Below, piece after piece: positions 1 to 30,385 of a DNA stretch of 64,000 nucleotides. Both the position numbers and the translations under genes were made by a program. The notes beneath the pieces are model-generated. The model was not told the origin of the DNA and did not search any database. It saw only the letters and a program-made list of their open reading frames with translations. Origin of the DNA: Variovorax sp. PAMC26660 (GTDB lineage: Bacteria; Pseudomonadota; Gammaproteobacteria; Burkholderiales; Burkholderiaceae_C); NCBI RefSeq assembly GCF_014302995.1, contig NZ_CP060295.1:6005501-6069500 (forward strand). Reading direction: 5' to 3'. Numbering within the stretch: the first letter of the stretch is position 1; each line of letters opens with the position of its first letter.

Positions 1-1213
1 CGAAGGCCAGGCGCATGCGTGTTTCGTACAGCGCGAAGTCGGATACGCACGCCAGGAAAAACACGTAGTGCGGCTTGTCGGGAAAGAGCGCCACCACCAC
101 GGCGTAAGACAGGAAGCGCAGCACCACCTCCAGCAGCGCCCAGCGGCCGAGCGAGCCCATCGAGGTGTTGAGCGACAGCACCATCTCGTGGTGGACCGTG
201 TATGTGCGCAGCAGGAAGTACGGCGCGATGCACAGGAAGATGCTGCGCGCCTCGTTGCCCATCTTGAGCAGCGGCGCTGCCACCGTGATGAGGCCTGCGA
301 GCCCGACGAAGAGGGCACAGCCCAGCAGGAAGGAATGCTTTGCCAGTTGCAGCTTCGACGCCGCGAGCTTTTCTGCGCTGGCGCCCAGCATGGCCGGCGT
401 CTTCGTGTACAGAAAAGCCTGCACGAACTGCGAGGGCGCTTCCGCCAGCAAAAATGCGAGCTTGAACGCCCCCACATAGCTCAGCGGCATGAAGAAGGCC
501 ACGATGAGCAGGTCCGATTTGCGCAGGAGGAAGGTCAGCAGCGAATAGACGGTCGCGCTGCCCTGCGAAGCCAGGGCCAGCGCATGCCGTCCGTTCGGCG
601 GCGCCACGCCGTGGGAGGACAGGACGATGGCCGCGCACACGACCACGAAGGCGAACAGGTTGATGAGCAGCAGATGCGCCACGCCCAGCTCGAACCCCAG
701 CGAGGCACAGGCCGCCACGCCCAGCACCAGAATGGTCGAGCGGATGCCGGCTTCCAGGTTGAGCAGCCCCGCATGGCCCAGGCCTCGGCTGTACGCCAGC
801 CGCAGGCTGTTGAACGAAAAAATCGCCAGCGTGGCCACCACCAGCAGAAACGGCAGGTCGGCGACCGGCAAGCGCTGCATGCCCAGGATGACCACCACCA
901 GCAGCGTTGCCAGCGGCAGCCCGATGCCCAGTGTGCGAGCCACATCGCCGCTGAACACGCCCGGTGGCACGCTGGCCGCATTGCGCGAGAACAGCAGCGT
1001 GCTGCCCAGCGTGCCGACCACCAGCGCCACTTCCATCACGGACTGGTAGATCGAGTACTCGCCGAAGCGCGCGGGCGACACGTTCGCCGCCATCAGGAAG
1101 ATCGCCAGAAAGCCCGACAGGTAGACGTACAGCCGCGACGCCAGCGCGCCCAGCCCGAGCAACCGGGCCATGCGGCCACCGGGCAGTGCGAGTGAGGGTC
1201 TGAAGGGCTTCAT
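1..1213 (-). CDS. Wzx-like polysaccharide flippase (partial)
   Basis: Partial gene running off the left edge; 404 codons are visible from the ATG at 1213. The product is a very hydrophobic multi-helix membrane protein. It has no stop in this frame and a Lys/Arg-poor, Leu/Val/Ala-rich pattern typical of the MATE/Wzx polysaccharide transporter superfamily, whose members flip undecaprenyl-linked repeat units to the periplasm. Segments near residues 25-45, 60-75, 95-135 and 145-195 look like membrane helices. It lies 24 bp behind the preceding glycosyltransferase-like gene and is the last visible gene of the exopolysaccharide operon, which otherwise has no flippase. The family call is from hydropathy and context; no diagnostic motif exists. 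The C-terminal end lies outside the window. Confidence 0.72.
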   Translation of the reverse strand, partial: MKPFRPSLALPGGRMARLLGLGALASRLYVYLSGFLAIFLMAANVSPARFGEYSIYQSVMEVALVVGTLGSTLLFSRNAASVPPGVFSGDVARTLGIGLPLATLLVVVILGMQRLPVADLPFLLVVATLAIFSFNSLRLAYSRGLGHAGLLNLEAGIRSTILVLGVAACASLGFELGVAHLLLINLFAFVVVCAAIVLSSHGVAPPNGRHALALASQGSATVYSLLTFLLRKSDLLIVAFFMPLSYVGAFKLAFLLAEAPSQFVQAFLYTKTPAMLGASAEKLAASKLQLAKHSFLLGCALFVGLAGLITVAAPLLKMGNEARSIFLCIAPYFLLRTYTVHHEMVLSLNTSMGSLGRWALLEVVLRFLSYAVVVALFPDKPHYVFFLACVSDFALYETRMRLAF

Positions 1214-1237
1214 GGCGTGCGCCGCTTGTCTGTGCGC

Positions 1238-2170
1238 TTACTTGGCCGCCGGCGCATCGGCCACGCGCAGCGTGTCGAAGACCCGGCGCGCGCGCGTGGC
1301 GACCCTGAACGCGCTGTTCTTGGCCCGGCGCGCCACCAGCAGCGCGTAGGTGAGCGCCGCGACCGTTCGCACACGGCCGCGCAGCGCATGCGGCATCGCC
1401 ATCTTTGCGCTGCCCTGGAAGTGCAGCGCCAGCACGCGCGCCATGTCACCCGAAGACATCACCAGGCAGGGCTGTCCATCGCGATAGGCGATGCGCTTGG
1501 CACCGCCGCGAATGCGGAACTCATGCGCCAGATGGTTGTGCGAGCTGTTGATGTTGTGGTCGATCACGTGGCCGTCGAGCACGCGGTTGATCGGGTCGGC
1601 GTTGCCCGTGGCCTGGGCCCAGAGGTAGAGCAGCGTCATGTCGGAGACGCCGCCGCGAATGCCGCGCGCCGCGAAACGCGCGGCAATCTGGCGCAGCTTT
1701 CGCTTGCCGGCCGGCGTTGCGTAGGTGTCGAGCACGAAGGCGACGAAGCGCTGCAGTCCGTTCGATGTCCAGTAGCTCACGTGCGGCGAGATCTGGCAGG
1801 GGTTCCACCCGTCCGCGGGGCGAATGTAGGAGCCCGAGAAATCGGCCTTGCCCGCCAGCCGCCTGATGTGCGTGCCGGCGCCCTCGAACAGCAGCACGTC
1901 GCTGTCGATCAGCACGAACTCACTGCACTCGGGGTGCGCGGCCAGGTATTGCGCCAGGAGAAAGTAGCGCCGAAAGCAGATCTTCTCGAACTCGGGCGAA
2001 TTGCTCGACAGGTGCATGTAGGCGTGGCGAAAACGCTCGTAGGCGGGGCCGGCGTCGGTGTCCGACAGCACGAGCAGTTGCTCGTCGGCCTGCGCGGCCG
2101 ACTCGCGGCACAGCGACAGCGTCTGGTTCTGGCGGTCTTCCACCACGATGAAGGGCAGGGGTTGGCTCAT
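1238..2170 (-). CDS. Glycosyltransferase-like protein with DxD motif
   Basis: A 310-residue protein that I do not recognise at family level. Near residues 90-95 it has the sequence LIDSDVLLF, a DxD-type motif of the kind that binds metal and nucleotide sugar in GT-A glycosyltransferases, and it is largely soluble. The frame stays open 23 codons further upstream, but the ATG at 2170 is preferred because translation from it gives a compact start (MSQPLPFIVVED), with the preceding gene ending 31 bp upstream. Its place among polysaccharide genes supports a role in adding a sugar or another group to the repeat unit. Acceptor and donor cannot be told from sequence. Confidence 0.55.
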   Translation of the reverse strand: MSQPLPFIVVEDRQNQTLSLCRESAAQADEQLLVLSDTDAGPAYERFRHAYMHLSSNSPEFEKICFRRYFLLAQYLAAHPECSEFVLIDSDVLLFEGAGTHIRRLAGKADFSGSYIRPADGWNPCQISPHVSYWTSNGLQRFVAFVLDTYATPAGKRKLRQIAARFAARGIRGGVSDMTLLYLWAQATGNADPINRVLDGHVIDHNINSSHNHLAHEFRIRGGAKRIAYRDGQPCLVMSSGDMARVLALHFQGSAKMAMPHALRGRVRTVAALTYALLVARRAKNSAFRVATRARRVFDTLRVADAPAAK

Positions 2171-2201
2171 GGCTGGGTCGATGTGTGGGGTTGGGGAAGG
2201 G

Positions 2202-3146
2202 TCAGGGCTTGCGCGCCGTGGCGCTTCGGACCAGCGCAAGGTGCGCCGGGAGAAAACGGAAGTTGTCGTCCACCGGCATGTCCAGCGTGAACATGCCTTT
2301 GGCTGCGTTGGCCTCGGCGATCCAGGCGCGCAATTGCGCGGCCGGGAAGCGCGGCTCCGACGGCCGCGCCCAGGACGTGCCCAGCGGCGTCAGCACATGG
2401 AACATGAGTTCGGAAGGCGGCGTGGAAAGATGCTCGGGCGGCTGCATGAACTCGCCGGCCATGAGGTTCTGGCAGGGCGCGCTCTTGAGGCTGAAGCGCG
2501 CCGCGCCTTCGCCGGCATTGAAGGCCAGCCAGCGGTTGGGTGCGCCGCTGCGCGCTGCCCCGCACAGCATGTCCCAGTCGGCCGCCGTCATGCCCCGGGT
2601 GTTGTAGACACCGTCGAACCACCAGCCGGTGGCGAGCGGGCCGTAGTGCTCGGACCAGTCCCGGATCACGCTGGACCAGGCCGCGATGAAACGCGGTGGC
2701 GGCGGCGATTGTTCCGAGACATCGCCCAGGCATTCCATAAGGTACGGGTCGGCTTGGGGCGCACGAAATGGCAAATAGAGAATCAGCGAGATGCCCCTGC
2801 GGCGCAACGCCTGGCCGATTTCGAGCGGCAGGTCGCGCGGCGGCCGGTTCTTCGCGGTGCCGGGGCACAGCACTTCCAACGCGGGGTTGGGTGCGATGTA
2901 CTGGCCGTTGTTCTGCCCCAGCGTCAGGATCAGGTGAGAGGCCCGCATCAGCGCCAGCGAAGTCGCGAAGGCCTCCACATCGAAACGCATGACCTCGGCG
3001 ATGGATTGCTTTTCGGGCAGGTAATGCACCATCACGCCGAAGCCCGGCAGCGGCGGCTCCGGCTGCTGCGCCAGCACGGCCGTCGATGCTGCTCCGAGCA
3101 GCAGCACGGCCAGAAGGCGCAGAAGAAGAGCCGTGCGCGTCTTCAT
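2202..3146 (-). CDS. Secreted GH29-like (alpha-L-fucosidase-like) protein
   Basis: A 314-residue protein with a clear signal peptide (MKTR, then a Leu/Ala-rich core ending AVLA-Q near residue 26), so it is probably periplasmic or secreted. The mature part resembles the catalytic barrel of family GH29 fucosidases. GFGVMVHY sits where GH29 has its GIFIHWG motif, HLILTLGQNNG where it has the second strand, and TGWWFDGVYN at the WFDG segment that carries the nucleophile Asp in GH29. It is shorter than typical GH29 enzymes (about 450 residues), so activity is uncertain. The start overlaps the upstream glycosyltransferase stop by 4 bp (ATGA). GDP-fucose synthesis genes lie a few kilobases upstream in the operon, which fits a fucose-acting enzyme. 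The alternative is a general putative glycosidase of unknown specificity. Confidence 0.6.
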   Translation of the reverse strand: MKTRTALLLRLLAVLLLGAASTAVLAQQPEPPLPGFGVMVHYLPEKQSIAEVMRFDVEAFATSLALMRASHLILTLGQNNGQYIAPNPALEVLCPGTAKNRPPRDLPLEIGQALRRRGISLILYLPFRAPQADPYLMECLGDVSEQSPPPPRFIAAWSSVIRDWSEHYGPLATGWWFDGVYNTRGMTAADWDMLCGAARSGAPNRWLAFNAGEGAARFSLKSAPCQNLMAGEFMQPPEHLSTPPSELMFHVLTPLGTSWARPSEPRFPAAQLRAWIAEANAAKGMFTLDMPVDDNFRFLPAHLALVRSATARKP

Positions 3147-4222
3147 TGCATGGCCCTGGCGAACGCAACAGGCCTGCGCTTGAGCGTGAGGTAGCTCGCT
3201 GCCACCGCGCCGGGTGCGCAGGCAGTGGCCAGCGACCACGCCGGGCGCGTGCGTTCGTGCCGCGCGAGGTAGCGCGCCAGCCTGTAGGGATCGCAGGGCG
3301 CGCTGCCGACGAAGAAGCCGTAGCCCGAAAAAAGCTCCCGGTGCACCGGAATGTCCGACAGCAGCAGCGGCACGCCGAGCGTGGCCGCTTCGGCTGCGGA
3401 AAGATTGAAACCCTCGAAGGTAGAGAGCGAAATGAACGCCGTCGCGCCCAGGTACAGCCGCACCAGCTCTTCGCGCGACACCAGCCCCCGGTGCCGCACG
3501 GCGCCGCGCACCTCCGGCGCCAGCGCCGCGACCATGCGTTCGACATCGGCAGCGCCGTTCCCCGTGATGTCGAGGCAATCGACCAGGCCTGCGCGCTTCA
3601 TGCGCTCGAACAGCTTCAGGATGCCGCCGAAGTTCTTGTGCGGGTAGTAGTGGTAGGCCGCGATCAGGTAGCGCTCGCGCGGTGCCGTCGTGCCGGTCGG
3701 GGCTGCGCCGTGGATGGCGTCCACCGGATTGAAGATGACCGCTGCGCGCTCGCAGGCGCGGAAGTGCCGCTCGAAATCCTGCTGGCTGCTCTTGCTGATG
3801 AAGACCACGTCCGCGGCGCTGCGGGCGATGCGCCAGAGGCTCCAGTCTAGCCACAGCCGCTTCTGCCGCGTGAAGTATTGCGGGTACGCCTTGTACTGCA
3901 GGTCGTGCACGATGACGATCGAATCCTGGTGCCGCCCGAACAGCGTGAGCGGCAGGAAGTAGTTCGGGAACAGCGAGAACACCCGCTCGCCGGACAGCAG
4001 CGCCAGCAACCGGTGAAAGTTGTAGAGCAGCGTGTCCAGCAGGAAGCGGCTCACCTTCAGCCGCCGCGCCGCTTCGTACACGCGCGGATGGCGTTCGCTG
4101 ATCGGCTGCACCTGGTCGTCGGCGGACAGCCGCATGTTTCGCAGCAGCACCTCGGAGACATTCAGCACGCCCCCCGCGCCCTTGTTGAGCCGGATGGTGT
4201 CGTAGAACAGGTAAGTGGCCAT
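3143..4222 (-). CDS. Glycosyltransferase family 4-like
   Basis: A 359-residue GT-B fold glycosyltransferase. The C-terminal half carries the GT4 signature: a phosphate-binding stretch (YYPHKNFGGILKLFERM near residue 197) followed by STFEGFNLSAAEA, the E-x7-E type motif that contacts the nucleotide sugar, and then GVPLLLSDIPVHREL. The N-terminal acceptor half begins YDTIRLNKGAGGV. The start ATG at 4222 lies 9 bp after the polymerase stop, and the end overlaps the fucosidase-like gene by 4 bp, so translation is coupled. It should act on the cytoplasmic face, extending the lipid-linked repeat unit. The sugar is not predictable; with gmd and fcl nearby, fucose is one possibility. Confidence 0.85.
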   Translation of the reverse strand: MATYLFYDTIRLNKGAGGVLNVSEVLLRNMRLSADDQVQPISERHPRVYEAARRLKVSRFLLDTLLYNFHRLLALLSGERVFSLFPNYFLPLTLFGRHQDSIVIVHDLQYKAYPQYFTRQKRLWLDWSLWRIARSAADVVFISKSSQQDFERHFRACERAAVIFNPVDAIHGAAPTGTTAPRERYLIAAYHYYPHKNFGGILKLFERMKRAGLVDCLDITGNGAADVERMVAALAPEVRGAVRHRGLVSREELVRLYLGATAFISLSTFEGFNLSAAEAATLGVPLLLSDIPVHRELFSGYGFFVGSAPCDPYRLARYLARHERTRPAWSLATACAPGAVAASYLTLKRRPVAFARAMQ

Positions 4223-4231
4223 GTCGCGTCC

Positions 4232-5551
4232 TCAGGCAATGGGCAGGCCGCGTCGCGCGGCCCAGTGTTGCGGGCGGCGGCCGCGTGCGCTCAGGGCACC
4301 GGCGATCACCGCCGCGATCAGCCCCGAGGTTGCGAAGGGGCCCCAGCCGAGGATGGGACCGCGCATGAACGGCACGTACGCAGCCAGCAGCACCAGCGCC
4401 GAGAGATACGCACCCGACAGCCCGCGGTGCGGATCGACCGCCTTGTCGATCAGGCGAAAGCCCGCCGAGATCGCAAAGCCCAGCATCAGCGGACCCAGCA
4501 GCCCGAAGTCGAAATACGCCGTGGTGAACGGCGGCAGCGACAGGTTGCTCTGCGAGAAATTCCCAAGGATGGCCGACCAGCCCAGCGGATCGAAGTCCGG
4601 GAACATCTTCAGGTCGCGCGGCAGGAAGAACGAGAAAGCCGAGAGCAGGTAGCGCCCGAAGCCAAGATCCGGAATGGGCGCGCGCTCCAGAATGCCGGCC
4701 ACGACGAACATGGCGTCGAAGTCCTGGCTGTAGGGAAAGGTCGAGAGCCCTTCGCCCCAGAAATTCCCGCGCGAGAACAGGTTCAGCACCGGCCCCAGAC
4801 CCGCGATGGCGCCGAAGATCAGCGAGGCCAGCAACCAGCGCCGCCTCCGGCCGAAGCCATGGATGAACAGCGGCAACAGGCCGATCAGCAGGATCTGCCG
4901 CGCCGTGTTGACCGGGTTCGCCGCGACGGCGGCCAGCGCAAGCGCCAGACCGGCCGCGCACCACGCCCACAGCGTCTGCCGGCGAAACGCGTGGATGGCC
5001 AGCGCCACGAAGCACATCAGCACCACGAGCTTGGGCAGCGTCGAATAGACGATGTAGTCGACCGGCACACTGTCGTCGTCGCCCAGAATGCCGCGCGCCA
5101 CGAAGTTCAGGTCGGGCCGGATGAAGAGCGCGGCGAACGCGGCGAGCGAACAGCTCAACAGCAGCAGGAAGGGGTGGGCCACGCCGACCGCATGCGTATT
5201 GAACAGGCCGCCCGCGCGCGAAGCGGGCAGGTCGCGCACGCCGATCCGCGCGGCCTCCACGCCCGCCATGTACAGCAGCAGGAGCATCAGCGCCTGCGTG
5301 TGCGCGGCCGAGCCGATCACGCCGGTGTCCCAGAACTCGACGTCGTGGGCGATCTGCATCGCCGGCGCCAGCGAGAAGTAGGTCAGGATCGTGGCGTAGT
5401 GGATCAGCAGGAACACGCTGGCACCCGAGGCGCCGAGCAGCACAAGCTGCACCAGCGACACCGCGAACACGGCCGCGTAGCCCCACACCGGATCGACCAG
5501 CCCGGCGAGCAGTGCGCAAGCGATGCCGAACCAGAAAACGAGGGTTCTCAT
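4232..5551 (-). CDS. O-antigen polymerase-like membrane protein (Wzy role)
   Basis: A 439-residue integral membrane protein with about ten to twelve predicted helices and long loops, the usual look of Wzy-type polymerases. These link undecaprenyl-bound repeat units in the periplasm. Sequence conservation in this group is too weak for a motif-based call. The start is the ATG at 5551 (MRTLVFWFG), which puts a membrane helix at the N terminus. It is the only gene in the operon with this architecture and sits between gmd and a glycosyltransferase, so the polymerase role is inferred by elimination. An O-antigen ligase-type activity cannot be excluded. Confidence 0.68.
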   Translation of the reverse strand: MRTLVFWFGIACALLAGLVDPVWGYAAVFAVSLVQLVLLGASGASVFLLIHYATILTYFSLAPAMQIAHDVEFWDTGVIGSAAHTQALMLLLLYMAGVEAARIGVRDLPASRAGGLFNTHAVGVAHPFLLLLSCSLAAFAALFIRPDLNFVARGILGDDDSVPVDYIVYSTLPKLVVLMCFVALAIHAFRRQTLWAWCAAGLALALAAVAANPVNTARQILLIGLLPLFIHGFGRRRRWLLASLIFGAIAGLGPVLNLFSRGNFWGEGLSTFPYSQDFDAMFVVAGILERAPIPDLGFGRYLLSAFSFFLPRDLKMFPDFDPLGWSAILGNFSQSNLSLPPFTTAYFDFGLLGPLMLGFAISAGFRLIDKAVDPHRGLSGAYLSALVLLAAYVPFMRGPILGWGPFATSGLIAAVIAGALSARGRRPQHWAARRGLPIA

Positions 5552-5568
5552 GATGTGGGCTCCGGCGC

Positions 5569-6693
5569 TCAGGCCTCGATGCTCATGGGCGTGTGATACC
5601 CGTGGCGCTGAAGCAGCGCCTGGCGCTTGGCCAGTTCCAGGTCGGCACCGACCATTTCGCAAATCATCTGGTCCAGCGTGATCTCGGGCACCCACCCCAG
5701 GTCGTCGGCCGCCTTCGACGGATCGCCGCACAGCGTTTCGACCTCTGCCGGCCTGAAGTAGCGCGGGTCCACGCGCACCAGCACGTCGCCCACGCAGACG
5801 GCCGGCGCGTCGTCGCCGTCGATCGCGCAAACAATGGCGACTTCGTCCAGACCGCTGCCCTCGAACACCAGCGAAATGCCGAGCTGCTTTGCCGCCTTGC
5901 TGACGAAATCTCGGATGCTGTACTGCACGCCCGTGGCAATCACATAGTCGACCGCCGTCGGCTGCTGGAGCATCAGCCACTGCATGCGCACATAGTCCTT
6001 GGCGTGGCCCCAGTCGCGCAGCGCGTTCATGTTGCCCAGAAAGAGACACTGCTCCAGACCCTGCGCAACGTTGGCCAGTCCGCGCGTGACCTTTCTGGTC
6101 ACGAAGGTCTCGCCACGGCGGGGACTCTCATGGTTGAAAAGGATGCCGTTGCACGCGTAGATGCCATAGGCCTCGCGGTAGTTCTTGGTGATCCAGTAGG
6201 CATAGAGCTTGGCCGCGCCGTACGGGCTGCGCGGGTAGAACGGCGTCGCCTCGCTCTGGCGGCCCTCCTGCACCAGTCCGTAAAGCTCGCTCGTGCTGGC
6301 CTGGTAGAAGCGCGTCCTGGATTGCAGGCCGAGCAACCGGATCGCTTCGAGCAGCCGCAAGGTGCCCAGCGCATTGATGTCGGCCGTGTACTCCGGGCTT
6401 TCGAAGCTCACGGCCACGTGGCTTTGGGCGCCCAGGTTGTAGATTTCGTCGGGCTGCACCTCCTGCACGATCCGCGTGAGATTGCTGCCGTCCGAAAGAT
6501 CGCCGTGGTGCAGGTGCAGATGGCGCTCTGTCTTCGTGTGCACATCCGAGTAGAGGTGGTCGATGCGTCCCGTGTTGAACTGCGACGACCGCCGCTTGAT
6601 GCCATGCACCTCGTAGCCCTTGGCGATCAGAAGCTCCGCCAGGTACGAGCCATCCTGGCCCGTGATGCCGGTGATGAGTGCGCGCTTAGACAT
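5569..6693 (-). CDS. gmd: GDP-mannose 4,6-dehydratase
   Basis: Converts GDP-D-mannose to GDP-4-keto-6-deoxy-D-mannose, the first committed step to GDP-L-fucose (also used for GDP-rhamnose). The 374-residue protein is full length for the family. It has the Rossmann motif [15 protein letters not shown] near the N terminus, the [12 protein letters not shown] segment, the TSELYG catalytic Thr/Glu region and the [12 protein letters not shown] active-site Tyr-x3-Lys. The true start is the ATG at 6693 (MSKRALITG), which overlaps the end of fcl by 8 bp. It forms a two-gene GDP-fucose cassette with fcl, which supplies the sugar for the surrounding glycosyltransferases. Confidence 0.96.
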
Positions 6694-7672
6694 GTGCGGC
6701 CTCTTGGGTGTTGGCAGCGACTCCCTGTGCCAACTGGTAGTCCGCATAGGTGCGCCGCAGCCCCTCGGCCAGAGGCATCGTCGGCCGCCAGCCGATGGTC
6801 GCGGCGCGCGACACGTCGAGCAGCTTGCGCGGTGCGCCATCGGGCTGCGCCAGGTCGTAGCGGATGCTGCCTTCGTAGCCCACGACCTCGCGGATCAGCT
6901 CGGTCAGCTCGGCGATGGAGACGTCTTCGCCGGTGCCCAGGTTGATGTGGCCGCGCATCGGGTCGGTGTGCTGCTCGTAGGCACCGCGCGAGAGGTTCAT
7001 CACGTCCAGGCAGCCTTCGACCATGTCGTCGACATACAGGAACTCGCGTCGCGCACGGCCGCTGCCCCAGATCAGCACGGTGGGCGCCTTGCCGATCTTG
7101 GCCAGGTGAAAGCGCTGGATCAGCGCCGGCACCACATGGCTGTTCTCCAGGTGGTAGTTGTCGCCGGGGCCGTACAGGTTGCTCGGCATCACGCTGCGGT
7201 AGTCGATGCCGTGGGTGGCGCCGTACTGCCGGTTGTAGCTTTCGCACAGCTTGATGCCGGCGATCTTGGCAATGGCGTACGGCTCGTTGGTCGGCTCCAG
7301 CTTGCCGGCGAGCAGGGCGTCTTCGCGGATCGGCTGGTCGGCCAGGCGCGGATAGATGCAGCTCGAACCCAGGAACAGCAGCCGCTTGACGTTGGCAAGA
7401 AAAGCCTGGTGCGTGACGTTGGCCGCGATCACCAGGTTTTCGTAGATGAACTGCGCGGGGTAGGTCATGTTGGCGTGGATGCCGCCGACCTTGGCCGCTG
7501 CCAGGTAGACCTGGTCGATGGGCTCGGTCGCGAAGAAGCGTGCAACCGCCGCCTGGTCCAGCAGGTCGAGTTCCGCACGGCTGCGCGTGACGACCTCATG
7601 GCCCTGTTCGCCCAGCCGCCTTGCCAGCGTCTGGCCCACCATTCCGCGATGACCTGCAACAAAGATACGCAT
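6686..7672 (-). CDS. fcl: GDP-L-fucose synthase
   Basis: Bifunctional epimerase/reductase that turns GDP-4-keto-6-deoxymannose into GDP-L-fucose using NADPH. The 328-residue protein carries the nucleotide-binding motif [14 protein letters not shown], the SSCIYPRLA segment with the catalytic Ser, and YAIAKIAGI with the active-site Tyr-x3-Lys, all in family positions. It precedes gmd and overlaps it by 8 bp, the reverse of the gmd-fcl order seen in many enterobacteria. Together with gmd this is the best evidence that the polysaccharide made here contains L-fucose. Confidence 0.95.
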
Positions 7673-7711
7673 ATGTGCTTTCGGTGAAGGGGTTGATCGG
7701 ACAGGCGCCGC

Positions 7712-8422
7712 CTAGCGGGAGCCGTGTGCGCCGAACACGACGCGGAAGGTCTTCAGAACGATCACGAGGTCGCGCAACACGGACAGCGTGGCGACGTACT
7801 CGGCGTCCATCGCGGCGCGGCGGCGGTAGCTCACCTCGTTGCGGCCGCTGATCTGCCACAGGCCGGTGATACCGGGTCGCACGGCGCAGTAGTGGTCCCA
7901 GTAGTTCCCGTACAGGTACTTCTGGGCAAACATGCAGGGGCGCGGCCCCACCATGCTCATGTCGCCCTTGAGCACGTTCCAGAACTGCGGAAATTCGTCG
8001 ATGCTGTATTTGCGCAGGAAGGCGCCGAAGCGGGTGATGCGCGGGTCGTGCTCCAGCTTCTGGAAGACCGTCCATTCGAGCCGCGCCACCGGGTTGTCGC
8101 GCAGGTGGCGGGCCAGCACCGCATCGGCGTCGGGCACCATCGAGCGGAACTTGTAGAACCGAAAGACCCTGCCGTCCTTGCCGTAGCGCGGCTGCATGTA
8201 GATGGCGGGGCCGCCGGATGTGAACAGCACGCCGATCCATATCAGCGCATAGGCCCAGCCGAAGAACAGGAAGAACGAGCCGGCCATCAGGATGTCCACC
8301 GCGCGCTTGCTGGCCTGGAGCAGCCGCGAGCCACCGACCGGAGTGGCAGCTGCAACGGCTGGCGCAGCGCGGTCGGGCCGCGCGGGCGATGCCGTGGGTG
8401 TGCCCGAGCGCAGCGTGTTCAT
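7712..8422 (-). CDS. Undecaprenyl-phosphate sugar phosphotransferase
   Basis: Initiates repeat-unit assembly by moving a sugar-1-phosphate onto undecaprenyl phosphate at the inner membrane. The 236-residue protein has one hydrophobic segment (about residues 45-70), then the family motifs FYKFRSM, RITRFGAFLRKYSIDEFPQ, GDMSMVGPRP and RPGITGLWQISGR. This corresponds to the catalytic C-terminal part of WbaP/WcaJ proteins, without their extra N-terminal membrane helices, a common short form. The ATG at 8422 overlaps the upstream kinase stop by 4 bp. Whether the first sugar is glucose, galactose or another cannot be read from sequence. Confidence 0.92.
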   Translation of the reverse strand: MNTLRSGTPTASPARPDRAAPAVAAATPVGGSRLLQASKRAVDILMAGSFFLFFGWAYALIWIGVLFTSGGPAIYMQPRYGKDGRVFRFYKFRSMVPDADAVLARHLRDNPVARLEWTVFQKLEHDPRITRFGAFLRKYSIDEFPQFWNVLKGDMSMVGPRPCMFAQKYLYGNYWDHYCAVRPGITGLWQISGRNEVSYRRRAAMDAEYVATLSVLRDLVIVLKTFRVVFGAHGSR

Positions 8423-10716: not shown

Positions 10717-10750
10717 GGGTTTCACCTTTTCGTGTTGCGGGGTCGGGCAC

Positions 10751-11959: not shown

Positions 11960-12000
11960 GGAAATCTCCTTGACGGCCGGGAACCGGTACTGGCGGGGGG

Positions 12001-12927
12001 TCATGGCGCGGCCCAGGTGGTGGGCATGGCGCGCCCGGCACCGGCGAGCGGGCGGCTCTGGCTTCGCCGCTCCGTGCTGGTGCCGAAACAGCGGTCGGTG
12101 ACCCAGTCGCCGACGGACTGGAGGAACAACTGCTGTCCCTTCGCCGTGCAGACGGTGTGGTCCACCTCCCGCATGAATTCGTAGTGCAGCGACTGCGCAA
12201 AGGCTTCGTTCCGGAACGGGCCGAGCTGGTCGCGGTCACGGTCGCAGACATGCAGCGAGCCGGAATACAGCATCTGCATCGCCACCTTGCGCTCTGCAAG
12301 CTGCGCCATGGTGGTGGCGAACCACGCGGCGGTGACCGCGGGCGATATGGATTCGGTGAAGAAGCCCGGCAGCGGCCTGGCCGCCTGCGTGCGCAGCAGA
12401 TGGCGCTTGAACCAGCGCACGGCCTTGCCCGCGAACGACGGATGCACGGGCGCGGCCAGCGCGCGGCGCACCGTGCGCTCCCAGCGCACGCGCCGCTGCG
12501 GAAAGGCAAAGCCGTCGAACATCGAGATGCCGATGACGCGCGCATCCGCCGCGGCGGTCGACATGGCGTGCTCCGCACCCGAACACATGCCGACGATCAC
12601 GAACTGCCGGATGCCCAGCGTGGCTTCCATCAGGTCCATGCCGGCCTGCAGGTCGTGCACCGCGCGGGTTTGCAGGTCGGGCGCGTTGTCGAGCGCATCG
12701 CTGTCGCCCACGCCGCCCAGGTCCAGCCGCAGGCTGCTCACGCCGCGCGCGGCCAAGGCATGCGCCAGCTTGACGTTGATGCGGCGCGGTCCCACGCGAT
12801 GGTTGGCGCCCATATTGAGCATCAGGCAGGCGACCGGGGCGGGCGCGTGCCGCGCGGGGGTGGTAACCATGCCCACCAGCGAGCCGCCGCGGCCGAAGCG
12901 GACCGGGCTTTGCGTCATGTCATTCAT
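12001..12927 (-). CDS. Alpha/beta hydrolase with Cys at nucleophile elbow
   Basis: A 308-residue alpha/beta hydrolase. The elbow reads GMCSG with Cys115 in place of the usual Ser; the following Ser could also act. It resembles the pair of hydrolases often found beside exosortase-type exopolysaccharide loci, although no exosortase or PEP-CTERM protein is visible here. The start ATG at 12927 overlaps the stop of the other hydrolase gene by 8 bp (ATGAATGA), showing tight coupling. Because the NRPS in the same operon has no terminal thioesterase, this protein could release or edit the peptide, or transfer it; that role is inference. Confidence 0.72.
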   Translation of the reverse strand: MNDMTQSPVRFGRGGSLVGMVTTPARHAPAPVACLMLNMGANHRVGPRRINVKLAHALAARGVSSLRLDLGGVGDSDALDNAPDLQTRAVHDLQAGMDLMEATLGIRQFVIVGMCSGAEHAMSTAAADARVIGISMFDGFAFPQRRVRWERTVRRALAAPVHPSFAGKAVRWFKRHLLRTQAARPLPGFFTESISPAVTAAWFATTMAQLAERKVAMQMLYSGSLHVCDRDRDQLGPFRNEAFAQSLHYEFMREVDHTVCTAKGQQLFLQSVGDWVTDRCFGTSTERRSQSRPLAGAGRAMPTTWAAP

Positions 12928-14448: not shown

Positions 14449-14454
14449 GATCGA

Positions 14455-19479: not shown

Positions 19480-22400
19480 GCGGCGGCCTTTCCATTCACG
19501 AGGTGGGCGGATGCCTGGGTGTCGGGCACGTACCAGAAGGGCTGGCCGTCGACGTCGCGCGCCAGCACCGAGCCTTCCTGCGAGGGCTTGCGTACATCGA
19601 AGCCGGTCACGACCGCCGCGCGGCGCGGCAGGAAGCCGGACTCCTGCATCTCGGCCACCGACTCCTTGAAGGCGCGCTGGATCGTGGCGATGTCTTCCTG
19701 GCTGTGCGCGCTCGTCAGGAAGCAGGGGAAGTTGTCCAGGATGTGCACGCCGCGGCTGCGCATCATGGCGAACAGCAGGTCTTGCAGCGGATGGTCTTCA
19801 AGCCAGCTCACGCGCCACAGCGAGGCGATGTGGCGGATCGCGATGGGCGCGCCAACCGCGACGCACCAGGCCGTGAGTTCGTCGGCCATGGCGGCGGTGC
19901 TCGCGCTCAGGCCGGTCTGCAGCGTGGGGCCGGCTTCTTTCAGATGCGTGAGCGAAGCCCTGGCAGCGGCCAGCGCGAGCGGATGCCGCACGAAGGTGCC
20001 GGCGAAGTAGGTGACGCCGACACCGGGGATCGAGTCGTCGCCGTACTGCCAGCCTCCACCGTCGAGCGCGTCCATGTAGGCGCGCTTGCCGGCAATCACG
20101 CCGACCGGAAAGCCGCCGCCGATCACCTTGCCGTAGGTGGCAAGGTCGGCACGCACGCCGAACAGTTCCTGCGCACCGCCCAGCGCCACGCGAAAGCCGG
20201 TGATGACCTCGTCGAAGATCAGGCACACGCCGTTTTGCTCGGTGATCGCGCGCACTTCCTGCAAAAACTCGCGCGGCTGGAAGTCGGGGCGGCGGCTTTG
20301 CACCGGCTCGGCCAGCACGGCGGCCAGGTCGTCGGCGTTCTCGCGGATGAAGGCCAGCGCCTCGGGCGTGCCGTAGTCCAGCACGCGGATGTCGCCGAAC
20401 ATGCCGCTCATCACGCCGGGCGCGGCCGAGATGCCCTTGGCGCCCTTGCCGGCGCGCACCAGCACTTCGTCGAAGGTGCCGTGGTAGGAGCCGGTGAACA
20501 CGACCACGGTGCTGCGGCCGGTGACGGTGCGGGCGATGCGCAGCGCCGCCATCACGGCTTCGGAGCCGGTGTTGCACAGGCCGGCGCGATCGCTGCCGGT
20601 GAGTTCGCAGATCAGGCGCGTGACATCGGCGGCCAGCGGATGCTGCGGCCCGATTTCGTAGCCAGCGTCGAGCTGCTGGCGCACGGCCTCCTGCACGAAA
20701 TCGGGCTGCCAGCCGAACATGTTCATGCCGAAGCCGTTGAGCGCATCGACGTATTCATTGCCGTCGATGTCCCAGAGCCTGGAGCCCTTGGAGCGTTCGA
20801 TGACGATCTGGTAGGTGATCTCCTTCGTCACCGGGCGAAAGCCATTGACCACGCGCGGGTCGGCCATGTGGGCGCGGTTCGCCTCGGTGAATTCCTTGCT
20901 CTTGCGGGTGCGTTCCACATAGCGTCGCAGGAAGGCCGCGAGCCGGGCCTTCTGGCGGCCGCTGGGCTCGGTGGTGCGCTGGGTGTGGATGCGGGCGATG
21001 GCGCCGAATGCCTTGGCGACGTCATAGCGCAGCGGTTCCTTCGCTGCCTCTGGCTCGGAAACTGGCGATGTGGCGGGCGTAGCGACGGCCAGCATCTGTG
21101 TTGCCTGCGAGGGCACGAAGGGCGCGGCCGTCACCGTGCCCGACAGCAGCGCCAGGTGTTGGCGCATCAATTCCATTTGCTGCGCAATCAATTGGGGAAG
21201 CTGCGTGCCGTTCAGATCGCCGGCTTGCAGCGGCCGCAACTGTTGCACCGGGTAGGGGACGGGTTGAAGCGGCTGGCTGGCCAGCACGGCTTCCACCGGC
21301 TCGGCCACGGGCACCGCTTCGGGTGGCAGGCTCTCGCGCAGGAAGGCTGCAAGGGTGTCGAAGCTGCGGTAGTTCTCCATCAACTGCCTGAAGCTCAGGT
21401 TCACCTTGAAGCGCTTCTTGATCTGCGTGGCCGCCTGCGTCAGCGTGAGCGAATCCAGTCCGAGTTCGGCGAAGAGTGCGTGCCCCTCGGCCTGGGCCAT
21501 GTCGATGCCGGAGATGTCCTCGAACAGGGTGCGCAGCCGCGCATCCATGGAAGGGGTCGACGAGGCGGGAGAAGAAGGCGGAAGAGGCGAGGGCGCTGCA
21601 GCTGTCACGATCGGCTCCAGTGGAATTGAGGGGACGGAAAGGGCGGGCGAGGTCGGCAAGGCGGCCGGACGGGTTGCGATGTCGATCCAGAAGCGCTTGC
21701 GCTCGAAGGGATAGGTGGGCAGGCACACGCGCTGCGCGCCGGCATGAGCGGCAAGGCGCGAGAGTTCGATCTCGGCGCCGCATGACCAGAGCCTTGCGAA
21801 TGCCAGCCGCAGCGTGCGGGCTTCGTCGGCCGGCTCGCCGTGCAGCAGGGGCACGGCTGCGTTGGCGCCGTGCTGGCGCACCAGCGTCGAGAGCGTGTTG
21901 CGCGGACCGGCCTCCACGAAGACGGGATGGGCCATGTGCGCCATCGCGCTGCGCACCGCCGGCGAAAAATGCACGGTGTCGCGCAGGTGGCGGGCCCAGT
22001 AGGCGGCGCTGGTCGCTTCTTCTGCTTCGAGCAGTCGGCCCGTGAGCGTCGAGAAGATCGGGATGAGCGGCGCATGCAGCGCGACCTGGCTCACCAGTGC
22101 CTCGAAGGGCGCGACGGCCGCGTCCATCATCGAAGAGTGAAAGGCGTGCGAGGTCTGCAGCGGCCGGTTGGCAATGCCTTCTGCGTCCAGCGTTGCCTGC
22201 AGGGCTGCGATGGCCTCGAAGGGGCCGGCGGCGACGCAGGCGGTGGGGCCGTTTTCCGCCGCGAGCGACAGCGACGGGCCGAGCCGCGACAACAGGTCGG
22301 CGACACCGAGCCGCACCGACAGCATCGCGCCGGCCGGCTGCGCCTGCATCAGCGCGCCACGGCGGGCCACGAGCCGGGCTGCGTCTTCGAGCCGCATCAC

Positions 22401-25400
22401 GCCCGCCAGCACCGCCGCGACGAACTCGCCCACGCTGTGGCCGATCAGCGCCTGCGGCCGCGCACCCATTGCAAGGAGCCGCTGCGCCAGCGCGTATTCG
22501 AGCGTGAAGATGGCGGGTTGCGTGATGGCGGTGGGCGCGAGCGATTGCGCGTCGACGCTGAACATCTGCGCGCGCAGGTCGAAGTCCATGGCGCCGTCGA
22601 AGGCGCGCAGGCCATCGTCGAACGCTGCCGCGAACACCGGATCGTGCGCATGCAGGTTCTTGCCCATGCCCGCGTACTGCGCACCCTGGCCCGGGAACAT
22701 CAACACGAGTTGCGGGGCACGCGAAGCGATGCTGCCGCTGGTGCGCCACGGGGAGGCTTCGTCGCGCAAGGCCGCGATGGCTTCGGCGGCATCGCCGGCC
22801 ACCACGGCGCGACGGAAGGCGTGGACCTTGCGGCCGACGCTCAATGTGTACGCGGCATCGGGCAGCGACAGCTCCGGGTGCGTTTCGAGGTGCGCCGCGA
22901 GCCGTTCGGTCGCCACGGCCAGCGCGGCTTCGGAACGGGCGGACAGCGGCAGCACCTGATAGCCCGCCACGGTCGCCGGGGCCGGCCGCAGCGGTGCCTC
23001 TTCGACCACCACATGCGCGTTGGTGCCGCCGACGCCGAAGGAGCTGACGCCCGCACGGCGCGGCACATCGGCGCGCGGCCAGGGCTGCAGCACGTTGCTC
23101 ACGCGAAACGGCGTGCGCGCGAAGTCGATCACCGGATTCGGCGCGTTGAAATGCACCGTCGGCGGAATCAGTCCGTGGTGCAGCGACAGCGCGGTCTTGA
23201 TGAGCCCGGCCGCGCCCGCAGCCGTGACCATGTGGCCCACGTTGCTCTTGAGCGAGCCGAGCGTGCAGAAGTCCAGCGCATCGGTGTGTTCGGCAAAGGC
23301 CACGGCCAGCGCCTCGACCTCGATCGGATCGCCCATCGGCGTGGCCGTGCCATGCGCCTCCACATACGAGATGCTGCGGGCGTCGACATTCGCCGCCGCC
23401 AGCGCGGCACGGATCACCGCCGCCTGTCCGTCGACGCTGGGCGCCGTGAAGCTGGCCTTGGCGCCGCCGTCGTTGTTGACGCAGGCGCTGCGCAGCACCG
23501 CGTAGATGGTGTCGCCATCGGCCTGCGCGTCCGCCAGCCGCTTCAGCAGCACGACCGCCGCACCGTCGCTGAAGACGGTGCCCTGGGCCTTCGCATCGAA
23601 GCTGCGCGTGTGCCCGTCGGGCGACAGCATCGAGCCCTCGTTGTAGAGGTAGCCGCTGCGCGGCGGGCAGGTGACCGAGGCGCCACCCGCGAGTGCCATG
23701 TAGCACTGGCCGGTGCGCAGCGCATGGAAGGCCTGCGCCACGGCCACCAGCGAGGTCGAACAGGCGGTGTGCACGCTGACGGCCGGGCCCGTGAGGTTGA
23801 GCCGGTTGGCCACGCGGGTGGTGATGTAGTCCTTCTCGTTGGCCAGCATCACCTGGAACTCGCCGACCGCTTCCACCAGATCGGGCCGCGTGGCGACGTG
23901 GCGCTGGAAGTAGCTGGCGTTGTACATGCCCGCGTACACGCCCACCGGGCCGGGTGCGGCGTCGGGCACATAGCCTGCGCGCTCCATGCATTCCCAGCAG
24001 ATTTCCAGAAAGATGCGCTGCTGCGGGTCCATCAGCGCCGCTTCTTTCGGGCCGATGCCGAAGAAGGCCGCGTCGAAGTCCTCGATGCCGTCGATCACGC
24101 CGCGTGCGCGCACATAGGCCGGGTCCGTGCGCAGGGCCTCGCTGATGCCGGCGTCTAGCGTGGCGTCGTCGAAGAAACTGATGGTGTCGCGGCCGGCGAC
24201 GAGGTTGTCCCAGAACTGTTCGACGTCGGCAGCGCCGGGGAAGCGGCCGGCCGTGGCGATCAGCGCGACGGCATCGAGGGTGTCTGTGGCGGGACGTGCG
24301 GTGCTGCTTTGCGTCGCGATGGGTTCTTCGCTGGCTGGATGCAGGCGGGTTGCCATGGCCTGCGGCGTCGGATGGCGAAAGAACAGGTTGGTCGACAGAG
24401 GCTGCACGGTGTCGCGCTGCAGCTCGGCCAGCACCTGCAGCACCAACAGCGAGTCGCCGCCGAGATCGAAGAAGTTGTCGTTGCGCCCGACCTTCTGGAT
24501 GCGGAGCGCGCGGGCGAAGGCTTCGCACACTTGCTGCTCGGCGCCATCGCGCGCTTCCTCGAAGGGCTGGGCCAGGTCGGGGCGCTCGCCGGCGGGCTCG
24601 GGCAGGGCATTGCGATCGAGCTTGCCGTTGGGCGTGACCGGAAGCTGCGCCAGCCACACCTGCGCGGAGGGAATCAACGCGGCAGGCAAGCGGGTCGCGA
24701 GGTGGGCGCGCAGCGTGTCCCACGGGAGCTTGTGCGACCGGGCGACGAGGTAGGCCACGAGGCGCAGTTGCCCGTCACCATCGGGCCGCGCGACGACGGC
24801 GCAGGACTGCACCTCGGGGTGGGCAAGGATGGCCGCTTCAACCTCGCCGGTCTCTATGCGGTGCCCGTGGATCTTCACCTGCCCGTCGCGCCGGCCGATG
24901 AACTCGATGGTGCCGTCGGGCAGCCAGCGTGCGAGGTCGCCGGTGCGATAGAGCCGGTCGTCGGGGCCACCGAAGGGATCGGGCACGAAGCGCTCCGCGG
25001 TGAGCGCGGGTTGCTGCAGGTAGCCACGGGCCAGCCCATGCCCGCCGATGCACAGCTCGCCCACGAAGCCGGAGGGCAGCAACGCCATCGAAGGGCTCAG
25101 CACGCGCAGCACGGTGTCCTTGATCGGACGGCCGAGCGGCACCGAGCGCAGGCGGGCCGGCAGCGCGGACGGAATGCGGTGCGTGGCCGCGAAGGTGGTG
25201 CATTCGGTCGGGCCGTAGCCGTTGCTCAGCGCCAGGCCGGGGAGCGCGGCGAGGGCGCGTTGCACATGCGGCACCGACAGGGCTTCGCCACCGGTGATCA
25301 GGTGCCGCAGGCCCTTCAGATGTGCCGGGTCGTCGTCGACCACGGCGTTGAAGAGCGCGGCCGTCAGCCAGGCCGTGTGCACGTCGTGCTGCGCGATGGT

Positions 25401-26744
25401 GTGCGCAAGGCCCGCGCCGGTGGGCACGCGTTCGCCGTGGATCACGCAGCGGCCGCCGTTGAGCAGCGGGCCCCAGATTTCGAGCGTGGCGGCGTCGAAG
25501 GCAAGCGGCGCGGCGTGCAGCATCGCGAGGCCGGGGGCGAGCTGCACGTAATCGACACCGACAACAAGGCGAAGGATCGCGCGATGGCAGATCTCGATGC
25601 CCTTGGGCGTGCCGGTGGAGCCCGAGGTGTACATGACATAGGCCACCGATTCGCCGGCGATGGCAGGTTCATTCCAAGCACTGCGATCTGTATTGCCGAT
25701 GCAATCGTCGAACAGCAGAACGGCTTGCGTCGCGGGCACGAGGTGGCGGTGCGGCTGGGTCGTGATCACCTGCCGGGTGCGCGCCTCGCCGAGCATGTAG
25801 GCGATCCGCTCGGGCGGGAAATCGGTCGGCACCGGGACGTAAGCTGCACCGGCCTTGAGGATGCCGAGCAGTGCAACTATGGCGGCCATCGAGCGGTCCA
25901 GCAGCAGGCCGACGCTGTCGCCCGCGTGCACGCCCGCGTCTTGCAGGCTATGCGCGAGCCGGACGGATTGCTGGTCGAGTTCACCGTAGGTCATGTGCGC
26001 GTCGCCCTCGGCGAGCGCGACGGCGTCGGGGGAAGCGGCCGCCTGCCGGCTGAACAGGCCGGTGACGGTGAGCGCGCGGTCTACAGGCGCGGGCGCGGTG
26101 GTCCATGCGGTGAGTTGGGCGTCGAGGTCGCCGGCCGGCAGGGTGCGGATGTCGCTCAACGCGGCGTCGGGTCGGGCCAGCAGATCAGCGGCCGTGTCGG
26201 CGAGGGCCGCGAGCAGTTGTTCGAGCGCGCCGATGTCCATCAGGCTCGCTGCCGCATCCATATGAAGGCGCAGCGGTGCGTCCGGCGCGGTGCCGCTCAG
26301 CCAGAGCCTGACGGGCGCATCGGCATCCACTTCGGCAAGGCCCACGTCATCGCGCAGCCAGAGTGAGGCGGGCACGGCGCCGGCCCGCGGCGTTGCGGAT
26401 GCGGCACGGCGGCCGGCGTCCAGTTCAGTCAGCCAGGCGCTGGCCGTCTTCGTGGCATCGAACGCGACGGTGATCGTTCCGTGCCTTGCCTCACACAGTG
26501 CAGGCCACAGGGTGCCGAGCCAGCGCGACTGCAGCAGCAGCCATGCGCCGGCGAAGAGGGTGTCTGGCAAATGGCTGGTGGCGGCGAGAGCCTGCGCCTG
26601 GCATTGCGCGAATTGCGCATCGAGCGTCAGCGAACCGGCGTGCCGGCCCTTTGCTTTTTCCGGGTTGGATCGCGGCACGAAGAGGTCGCCCAGAAGCAAA
26701 TCCGGAGCGCCGCGGCGTGCTGGCGAAACAGTTTGAATTTCCAT
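19476..26744 (-). CDS. Hybrid NRPS-PKS: A-T-KS-AT-T-aminotransferase
   Basis: 2422 residues, the first gene of the operon. Residues 1-225 look like the C-terminal remnant of a condensation domain without HHxxxDG. The adenylation domain (about 235-710) has YTSGSTGTPKG near 371 and a hand-derived pocket code D-A-L-W-I-G-G-T-F-K, one position from the common valine code. A carrier domain follows (DLGGDSLL near 761). The ketosynthase (about 825-1250) has Cys995 and both His motifs (EAHGT, NVGH). The acyltransferase (about 1345-1650) has Ser1437 in GHSVG and HAFH, the malonyl signature. A second carrier has Ser1765. A class III aminotransferase (about 1950-2400) has the PLP lysine at 2206. There are no reducing domains. 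Expected chemistry: valine, one malonate extension, then amination of the beta-ketone. No strong ribosome site precedes the ATG. Confidence 0.95.
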   Translation of the reverse strand: MEIQTVSPARRGAPDLLLGDLFVPRSNPEKAKGRHAGSLTLDAQFAQCQAQALAATSHLPDTLFAGAWLLLQSRWLGTLWPALCEARHGTITVAFDATKTASAWLTELDAGRRAASATPRAGAVPASLWLRDDVGLAEVDADAPVRLWLSGTAPDAPLRLHMDAAASLMDIGALEQLLAALADTAADLLARPDAALSDIRTLPAGDLDAQLTAWTTAPAPVDRALTVTGLFSRQAAASPDAVALAEGDAHMTYGELDQQSVRLAHSLQDAGVHAGDSVGLLLDRSMAAIVALLGILKAGAAYVPVPTDFPPERIAYMLGEARTRQVITTQPHRHLVPATQAVLLFDDCIGNTDRSAWNEPAIAGESVAYVMYTSGSTGTPKGIEICHRAILRLVVGVDYVQLAPGLAMLHAAPLAFDAATLEIWGPLLNGGRCVIHGERVPTGAGLAHTIAQHDVHTAWLTAALFNAVVDDDPAHLKGLRHLITGGEALSVPHVQRALAALPGLALSNGYGPTECTTFAATHRIPSALPARLRSVPLGRPIKDTVLRVLSPSMALLPSGFVGELCIGGHGLARGYLQQPALTAERFVPDPFGGPDDRLYRTGDLARWLPDGTIEFIGRRDGQVKIHGHRIETGEVEAAILAHPEVQSCAVVARPDGDGQLRLVAYLVARSHKLPWDTLRAHLATRLPAALIPSAQVWLAQLPVTPNGKLDRNALPEPAGERPDLAQPFEEARDGAEQQVCEAFARALRIQKVGRNDNFFDLGGDSLLVLQVLAELQRDTVQPLSTNLFFRHPTPQAMATRLHPASEEPIATQSSTARPATDTLDAVALIATAGRFPGAADVEQFWDNLVAGRDTISFFDDATLDAGISEALRTDPAYVRARGVIDGIEDFDAAFFGIGPKEAALMDPQQRIFLEICWECMERAGYVPDAAPGPVGVYAGMYNASYFQRHVATRPDLVEAVGEFQVMLANEKDYITTRVANRLNLTGPAVSVHTACSTSLVAVAQAFHALRTGQCYMALAGGASVTCPPRSGYLYNEGSMLSPDGHTRSFDAKAQGTVFSDGAAVVLLKRLADAQADGDTIYAVLRSACVNNDGGAKASFTAPSVDGQAAVIRAALAAANVDARSISYVEAHGTATPMGDPIEVEALAVAFAEHTDALDFCTLGSLKSNVGHMVTAAGAAGLIKTALSLHHGLIPPTVHFNAPNPVIDFARTPFRVSNVLQPWPRADVPRRAGVSSFGVGGTNAHVVVEEAPLRPAPATVAGYQVLPLSARSEAALAVATERLAAHLETHPELSLPDAAYTLSVGRKVHAFRRAVVAGDAAEAIAALRDEASPWRTSGSIASRAPQLVLMFPGQGAQYAGMGKNLHAHDPVFAAAFDDGLRAFDGAMDFDLRAQMFSVDAQSLAPTAITQPAIFTLEYALAQRLLAMGARPQALIGHSVGEFVAAVLAGVMRLEDAARLVARRGALMQAQPAGAMLSVRLGVADLLSRLGPSLSLAAENGPTACVAAGPFEAIAALQATLDAEGIANRPLQTSHAFHSSMMDAAVAPFEALVSQVALHAPLIPIFSTLTGRLLEAEEATSAAYWARHLRDTVHFSPAVRSAMAHMAHPVFVEAGPRNTLSTLVRQHGANAAVPLLHGEPADEARTLRLAFARLWSCGAEIELSRLAAHAGAQRVCLPTYPFERKRFWIDIATRPAALPTSPALSVPSIPLEPIVTAAAPSPLPPSSPASSTPSMDARLRTLFEDISGIDMAQAEGHALFAELGLDSLTLTQAATQIKKRFKVNLSFRQLMENYRSFDTLAAFLRESLPPEAVPVAEPVEAVLASQPLQPVPYPVQQLRPLQAGDLNGTQLPQLIAQQMELMRQHLALLSGTVTAAPFVPSQATQMLAVATPATSPVSEPEAAKEPLRYDVAKAFGAIARIHTQRTTEPSGRQKARLAAFLRRYVERTRKSKEFTEANRAHMADPRVVNGFRPVTKEITYQIVIERSKGSRLWDIDGNEYVDALNGFGMNMFGWQPDFVQEAVRQQLDAGYEIGPQHPLAADVTRLICELTGSDRAGLCNTGSEAVMAALRIARTVTGRSTVVVFTGSYHGTFDEVLVRAGKGAKGISAAPGVMSGMFGDIRVLDYGTPEALAFIRENADDLAAVLAEPVQSRRPDFQPREFLQEVRAITEQNGVCLIFDEVITGFRVALGGAQELFGVRADLATYGKVIGGGFPVGVIAGKRAYMDALDGGGWQYGDDSIPGVGVTYFAGTFVRHPLALAAARASLTHLKEAGPTLQTGLSASTAAMADELTAWCVAVGAPIAIRHIASLWRVSWLEDHPLQDLLFAMMRSRGVHILDNFPCFLTSAHSQEDIATIQRAFKESVAEMQESGFLPRRAAVVTGFDVRKPSQEGSVLARDVDGQPFWYVPDTQASAHLVNGKAAA

Positions 26745-26776
26745 GTAAACACCCGGGGAATAAATACATTGGAATT

Positions 26777-28187: not shown

Positions 28188-28213
28188 CCCGGATCCGACA
28201 CAGGAGAGACACC

Positions 28214-30309: not shown

Positions 30310-30385
30310 AATTTCCGTTGACTGACCGGTGCTGGTGCGGCTTGTCCGCTCGCCAGCGATTGCCTCGTTCGTCTGCGGAGTTTCC

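Follow-up and report, generated by a model that had tools for sequence, protein, structure and literature searches.

The window analysed here, a stretch of 64,000 nucleotides from Variovorax sp. PAMC26660 (contig NZ_CP060295.1, 7,388,698 bases long, positions 6,005,501 to 6,069,500 of the forward strand), begins with a minus-strand run of genes that joins two assembly-line proteins, a nonribosomal peptide synthetase-polyketide synthase hybrid (NRPS-PKS) and a second nonribosomal peptide synthetase (NRPS2), to genes for the synthesis and export of a polysaccharide. An earlier note on this DNA had placed a synthetase and Wza/Wzc-type fucose polysaccharide genes in a single run, and the gene models and domain searches bear this out. 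The synthetases are composed of adenylation (A), condensation (C), ketosynthase (KS) and acyltransferase (AT) domains, with peptidyl and acyl carrier proteins (PCP and ACP). The genes of the run are listed from the NRPS-PKS onwards, with negative positions counted beyond the window edge:

19476..26744, minus strand: NRPS-PKS, 2422 residues, A-PCP-KS-AT-ACP-class III aminotransferase (Pfam domain order)
14455..19479, minus strand: NRPS2, 1674 residues, C-A-PCP-C-PCP (Pfam)
13735..14448, minus strand: 4'-phosphopantetheinyl transferase (PPTase; PF01648, 61.4 bits)
12920..13738, minus strand: H1, alpha/beta-hydrolase with Arg at the nucleophile position (GARLG); closest NCBIfam family TIGR03101
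12001..12927, minus strand: H2, alpha/beta-hydrolase with Cys at the nucleophile position (GMCSG); closest NCBIfam family TIGR03100
10751..12004, minus strand: Wza-type outer-membrane polysaccharide export protein (Poly_export, SLBB)
8419..10725, minus strand: Wzc-type tyrosine autokinase (Wzz, WZC_N, GNVR, AAA_31; TIGR01005, 431.1 bits, cut-off 411.7)
7712..8422, minus strand: initiating sugar-phosphate transferase, WbaP/WcaJ catalytic half only (PF02397, 200 bits)
6686..7672, minus strand: Fcl, GDP-L-fucose synthase-like (PF01370, 213 bits)
5569..6693, minus strand: GDP-mannose 4,6-dehydratase (GMD; PF16363, 490 bits)
4232..5551, minus strand: putative Wzy polymerase, a multi-helix membrane protein with no Pfam family over cut-off
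3143..4222, minus strand: family 4-like glycosyltransferase (PF00534, 44.6 bits)
2202..3146, minus strand: GH29-like alpha-L-fucosidase fold with an N-terminal signal-like helix (structure model, pLDDT 88.5)
1238..2170, minus strand: putative glycosyltransferase with a DSD motif read by eye and no family match
1..1213, minus strand: putative Wzx flippase, running past the window (NF041503, a weak 23.8 bits, cut-off 300; no Pfam match)
-1299..-52, minus strand: WcaI-family glycosyltransferase (580 bits, cut-off 276)
-2459..-1329, minus strand: GalE
about -3225..-2452, minus strand: LuxR-type response regulator
-4759..-3236, minus strand: ManC (575.4 bits, cut-off 372.95)

Within the window the run comprises 15 genes, down to a flippase gene that runs some 55 bases past window base 1 at its 3' end (the gene models were read across the window edge). 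The 14 junctions from NRPS-PKS to flippase measure -4, 6, -4, -8, -4, 25, -4, 39, -8, 17, 9, -4, 31 and 24 bp, with seven overlaps, a count that start-codon choice decides. The earlier note had given 15 same-strand genes with no gap over 41 bp and eight overlaps; its gene number stands, with the largest gap now 39 bp and one overlap fewer. The operon of 26.7 kb that it described is indeed a tight same-strand run, but one cut by the window edge, as it continues for a further 4.8 kb with four more genes on the same strand, giving 19 genes and about 31.5 kb. Its gene identities agree with the domain searches, except that Wzx, Wzy and one glycosyltransferase lack a family match over cut-off. Terminator-like sites are at chance level, both in L003 (11 against a shuffled mean of 9.8) and at window positions 10000-29000 (11 against 8.8), and therefore give no hint of a transcription break inside the operon. 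The same scans found no sigma-70-like promoter, and no Rfam family reaches its gathering score in the window. Judging from the tight packing, the chance-level terminators and the 4-bp overlap of H2 and wza, the operon is likely to be co-transcribed as one transcript.

The assembly line appears complete, as A, PCP, C, KS and AT domains with their active-site motifs are all present together with the PPTase. The NRPS-PKS carries two PP-binding stretches, the second of which, at about 1735-1800, was placed by eye. NRPS2 has HHxxxDG in both C domains and LGGDSL in its last PCP; among related sequences these motifs are kept in 54/54 rows for the last C domain and in 41/44 for the last carrier domain. 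Pfam detects no thioesterase or reductase domain on either synthetase protein, and H2 is proposed in its place. The first A domain has the code DALWIGGTFK (GrsA positions), which reads as a valine-type code. Among 65 relatives surveyed the starter code is Val-like in 46, Pro-like in 13 and of other kinds in the remainder, and in another three loci no A domain was found where it was expected. The first A domain looks swapped between relatives (L028, L050, L052, L054, L103 and others), with a Pro-like instead of a Val-like code and about 40% identity, against 75-82% in the KS and aminotransferase. For the second A domain, DILQLG-type codes, presumably specifying glycine, occur in 13 of 57 rows of related sequences, in a table that includes a few poor alignments and possibly also neighbouring paralogous domains. 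The domain order, an aminoacyl starter followed by KS-AT and a class III aminotransferase, predicts a diamino acid, as the earlier note had proposed, and the first unit of the product is expected to be a beta,gamma-diamino acid.

Between the synthetases and wza lie the PPTase and what had been described as tandem hydrolases. The two hydrolase genes are adjacent, as stated, and are more precisely the Arg/Cys pair of exosortase-A polysaccharide loci. Of 52 related loci, 50 have Arg and two have Gly at the H1 position where a serine nucleophile would sit, some of these loci coming from the same or near-identical genomes. In H2, Cys115 is invariant in all 120 relatives aligned out of 251 found, and the closest relative is from Variovorax sp. 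GB1P17. TIGR03101 occurs in 19 of 120 genomes sampled from the order, and each of the 15 such loci that were read has the same Arg, an adjacent H2-like gene with the Cys, and an acyl carrier protein gene directly before the pair; these 15 loci are tied to exosortase A through family models, and the features of the pair are as read there, not those of a published definition. In the window the PPTase gene stands between the terminal PCP and H1, and the order is otherwise carrier domain, Arg and Cys, as in the TIGR03101 loci. On sequence and gene order, H1 and H2 are the same kind of pair as in exosortase-A loci, placed downstream of the terminal carrier domain. Seven distant class-level genomes have a similar aminotransferase region; the pair is present in three of them (G701, G557 and G682) and absent from the stretches read in the other four. 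In G682, which belongs to another family, initiating-transferase-like, glycosyltransferase-like and Wza-like genes lie on the same stretch as the NRPS-PKS-type unit.

The polysaccharide genes are clear by family models for Wza, Wzc, the initiating transferase, GMD, the Fcl-like epimerase, two glycosyltransferases and ManC. The wza gene is the sole Poly_export match in the 7.39 Mb genome (E <= 0.001), and Fcl is named tentatively, from gene order and sequence. One relative of the Wzy-like protein is named 'Oligosaccharide repeat unit polymerase' and there is a weak fold match to WaaL; the fold comparison gave no convincing match and is uninformative about its fold. The model of the protein at 2202-3146 finds the AlfB fucosidase as its best PDB match (E 3.6e-12), with query TM-scores of 0.56-0.70 over the best 50 rows; its PF01120 score of 17.3 bits lies below the cut-off of 25.2, and two relatives carry PF01120. 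The GMD, Fcl and ManC genes together with this GH29-like fold predict that the polysaccharide contains fucose. The XrtA-type export and kinase families are not over cut-off in the window (TIGR03027, 68.4 against 180 bits; TIGR03018, 105.4 against 230.65). At the operon end of G014 (L090:15936-20000), ManC is followed by an opposite-strand GMD-like gene and by a further response regulator.

Comparison with related genomes, the check that had been suggested, shows that the gene order is kept across the Variovorax-type genus. The NRPS-PKS aminotransferase region is found in 91 of 101 genus genomes and the Wzy-like gene in 44, all of which have both. In 41 of these 44 the two lie on one contig, 13,645-15,882 bases apart (match starts), and in the remaining three on separate contigs of draft assemblies. 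As the same order is kept across the genus, the arrangement is therefore more than chance. In a family sample of 299 genomes the NRPS-PKS region occurs in 16 and Wzy in four, all four among those 16. Some genus genomes (G005, G388 and G015) have two NRPS-PKS aminotransferase regions of this type each.

Outside the Wza-linked loci, the unit is found beside export genes of a second kind. The genes directly beside the NRPS-PKS in G065, G092 and G303 belong to XrtA-type exopolysaccharide (EPS) families (TIGR03027, TIGR03007, TIGR03018, TIGR03015 and others), with 10 of 10 proteins scanned from L061, L071 and L075 scoring above cut-off for one or more of these families. These genes share the strand of the NRPS-PKS in G092 and G303 and run divergently from it in G065; the same surroundings are seen in G109 from sequence similarity and in G224 from where its Poly_export gene lies. 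This linkage spans three other genera. XrtA itself (TIGR03109) is over its cut-off of 208 in none of 19 NRPS-PKS genomes, G000 included; weaker relatives of 115-170 bits occur in G349, G188, G093, G300 and G151, none of them near the NRPS-PKS. In L061:7526-9967 and L071:8777-10990, an XrtA-associated ATPase (TIGR03015) shares one open frame with a WecB-like UDP-GlcNAc 2-epimerase domain (below cut-off). A tree of KS plus aminotransferase (53 rows selected from the loci; a quick search with some long branches) places the Wza-linked rows in one group with an SH-aLRT of 100, and requires one change for this group and three for the five XrtA-linked rows. The linkage pattern on the tree therefore suggests that the unit joined polysaccharide loci on more than one occasion, or was repeatedly lost from them.

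Among 45 genomes scanned, each with at least one Poly_export gene, 22 of 46 NRPS-PKS places lie within 20 kb of such a gene, whereas this is true of 0/36 other NRPS/PKS loci among the matches listed (Fisher 3e-7, not corrected for shared ancestry); 15 of the 36 control loci share a contig with an export gene, and contig ends can hide neighbours. With one genome per genus and the window's own genus left out, 4/9 are linked against 0.28 expected (P 1e-4), or 3/9 (P 0.002) when the other genome of genus g57 is used.

These observations would fit a composite operon in which the NRPS-PKS makes a short vicinal-diamine-acid peptide and the Arg/Cys pair off-loads it onto the predicted fucose-containing exopolysaccharide, a reading that is favoured here but held tentatively, at somewhat below an even chance. 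The first A domain would load valine or a similar residue, to which KS-AT would add malonate; the class III aminotransferase would then aminate the beta-keto group, giving 3,4-diamino-5-methylhexanoyl-ACP. NRPS2 would add one residue (some relatives have a Gly-like pocket), and the product would be held on its final C-PCP, which has neither an A domain of its own nor a thioesterase. H2, with its Cys nucleophile, and its Arg partner H1 would transfer the product from the last carrier protein to an acceptor. The initiating sugar-phosphate transferase would start the repeat unit, the fucose in it would come from ManC, GMD and Fcl, and the unit would be flipped, polymerised and exported through Wzc/Wza. 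As the two gene sets are close neighbours in 41 or more of the 101 genus genomes, the peptide is likely to be attached to, or secreted with, the polysaccharide. Its role as a substituent is favoured because two kinds of export locus recur beside the NRPS-PKS, and because the hydrolases proposed for off-loading belong to a kind of pair that takes its name from exosortase-A loci.

Several findings weigh against this scheme. The acceptor is the weakest step of the proposed mechanism, and none of the 19 operon genes was recognised as encoding an enzyme that would link the peptide to a sugar. H1 and H2 score below the cut-offs of their closest families (101.8 against 202.75 bits for TIGR03101 and 55.7 against 168.45 for TIGR03100). 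The substrate assignments of the A domains depend on code tables, and the code of the second A domain in the window, DIAQWGVVWK (read by motif), is not known to match any substrate. The Wza-linked set is one clade, and conservation within it therefore amounts to one joining event and inheritance. Among the 91 NRPS-PKS-bearing genus genomes, 47 are without the Wzy-like gene, two of which (G010 and G029) are fragmented assemblies that belong by score in the linked group, and several unlinked units, judged by eye, adjoin housekeeping genes (tRNA-modification, mutase and miaB-like). No export gene lies near the NRPS-PKS in G093, G300 and G131 of the wider family or in G045 outside it, and the nearest is 44-45 kb away in G188, G349 and G299 and 87 kb away in G151.

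The explanation that survives best beside that of a glycan substituent, and is nearly as likely, is that the NRPS-PKS makes a free small molecule, such as a signal, metallophore or antimicrobial, which is co-expressed with the polysaccharide or trapped in it, H2 then being a stand-alone thioesterase and H1 its helper. The unit is self-complete with its PPTase and hydrolase pair, it occurs in genus genomes without the Wzy-like gene, some of the units being solitary, and its starter code varies as in diversifying natural products. On the other hand, none of the operon genes with a family match was recognised as a dedicated small-molecule exporter, a receptor or a resistance gene, the other NRPS/PKS loci in the control lack such linkage, and outside this unit the Arg/Cys pair is known from families associated with exosortase A. 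It is a good deal less probable that the product modifies another envelope component (lipid, lipopolysaccharide or protein). This would explain the unit's presence in genomes without a linked locus, but the unit adjoins two different exopolysaccharide types, and the presence of a Poly_export gene in every scanned NRPS-PKS genome leaves room for a glycan acceptor elsewhere. That the two gene sets are neighbours by chance, functionally uncoupled and held together by common descent, as the single Wza-linked clade could suggest, is very improbable given the XrtA-type linkage in three other genera, the polysaccharide genes beside the unit in another family, the excess of linked genera over expectation and the overlap that joins H2 to wza.

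Upstream of the NRPS-PKS is a 555-base leader, followed by two divergent methyltransferase genes:

26910..26930, minus strand: conserved leader block starting GGTAGTACG, some 165-185 bases ahead of the NRPS-PKS start
27300..28187, plus strand: class I methyltransferase, possible partner (Methyltransf_11, 61 bits)
28184..29038, plus strand: TIGR04325 methyltransferase, possible partner (186 bits, cut-off 80)

Many Wza-linked loci, though not all, have a relative of the first methyltransferase immediately upstream of the NRPS-PKS, and several other genomes have a TIGR04325-like gene next to an NRPS-PKS locus. The leader block, within the region 26900-26970, reads GGTAGTACG in 14 of 15 aligned leaders and GGCAGTACG in L038. 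A regulon defined by this block was rejected, as a degenerate pattern occurs once in the own genome, once in G011 and not at all in five other genomes searched; among the linked genomes searched it is present in two of five and absent from G014, G033 and G076. An RfaH/ops-type element was likewise rejected, GGCGGTA being present in the window leader and in only 2/20 leaders searched, and one sigma-54 pattern had no match in the 15 aligned leaders. Beyond the divergent genes, at 30329-36290, lies a copper-type efflux set (OEP, a CusB-like protein with a CusF domain and an AcrB-type pump). Elsewhere, similar proteins with an AVLGDSDSH motif (SGNH-like by eye) are encoded near the NRPS-PKS in G151 and G188 (L063:225-1331 and L065:5-1186); that of L063 has no NCBIfam match.

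The titles, abstracts and passages that made up the literature searched hold no description of an NRPS-PKS inside a Wzx/Wzy polysaccharide operon, and none of this natural-product unit, conserved in a genus of soil and roots where 91 of 101 genomes have it. The parts are known; in this material no account was found of their combination, of its conservation or of the shared hydrolase pair. If the substituent reading is true, a chemically unusual cationic substituent is predicted on a surface polysaccharide, and searches aimed at free natural products would miss a glycan-bound peptide. The wider proposal, that Burkholderiales decorate exported polysaccharides with NRPS-PKS-derived vicinal-diamine peptides, that the Arg/Cys pair is a general carrier-protein-to-glycan transferase and that an undescribed class of nonribosomal peptide-glycan conjugates exists, is more doubtful than the reading of this operon.

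Among known systems, N-acyl amino acids are the product of a single synthase and not of an NRPS-PKS. Passages on the N-acyl amino acid synthases describe such small amino-acid products as encoded beside exopolysaccharide-associated genes, a precedent for the present arrangement (PMC7293339). The iturin/mycosubtilin-type modules, like the window's, place KS-AT-ACP before a GSA-like aminotransferase on one chain. Their product is a beta-amino fatty acid, whereas the window module would work on an aminoacyl starter and is predicted to give a vicinal diamine. Colanic-acid-like (Wza/Wzc) fucose loci share Wza, Wzc, the initiating transferase, GMD, Fcl, ManC and the WcaI-family glycosyltransferase with the operon, which differs from them in the NRPS-PKS, PPTase and hydrolase pair at its 5' end. 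The words hydrolase, ligase, nonribosomal, acyl carrier and decarboxylase are absent from the main text of Haft 2006. The XrtA/PEP-CTERM EPS loci (TIGR03027, TIGR03007, TIGR03018, TIGR03100, TIGR03101 and TIGR03109) resemble the operon in having a carrier protein followed by Arg- and Cys-type hydrolases, and XrtA-type EPS genes directly adjoin the NRPS-PKS in the three genomes described above. The differences are that the EPS genes of the window are of the Wza/Wzc type, that XrtA over cut-off is missing from the NRPS-PKS genomes scanned for it, and that in the window operon the NRPS-PKS replaces the small ACP. If the substituent reading is true, a role that can be tested would follow for the ACP and hydrolase genes of exosortase-A polysaccharide loci, which lack an explanation.

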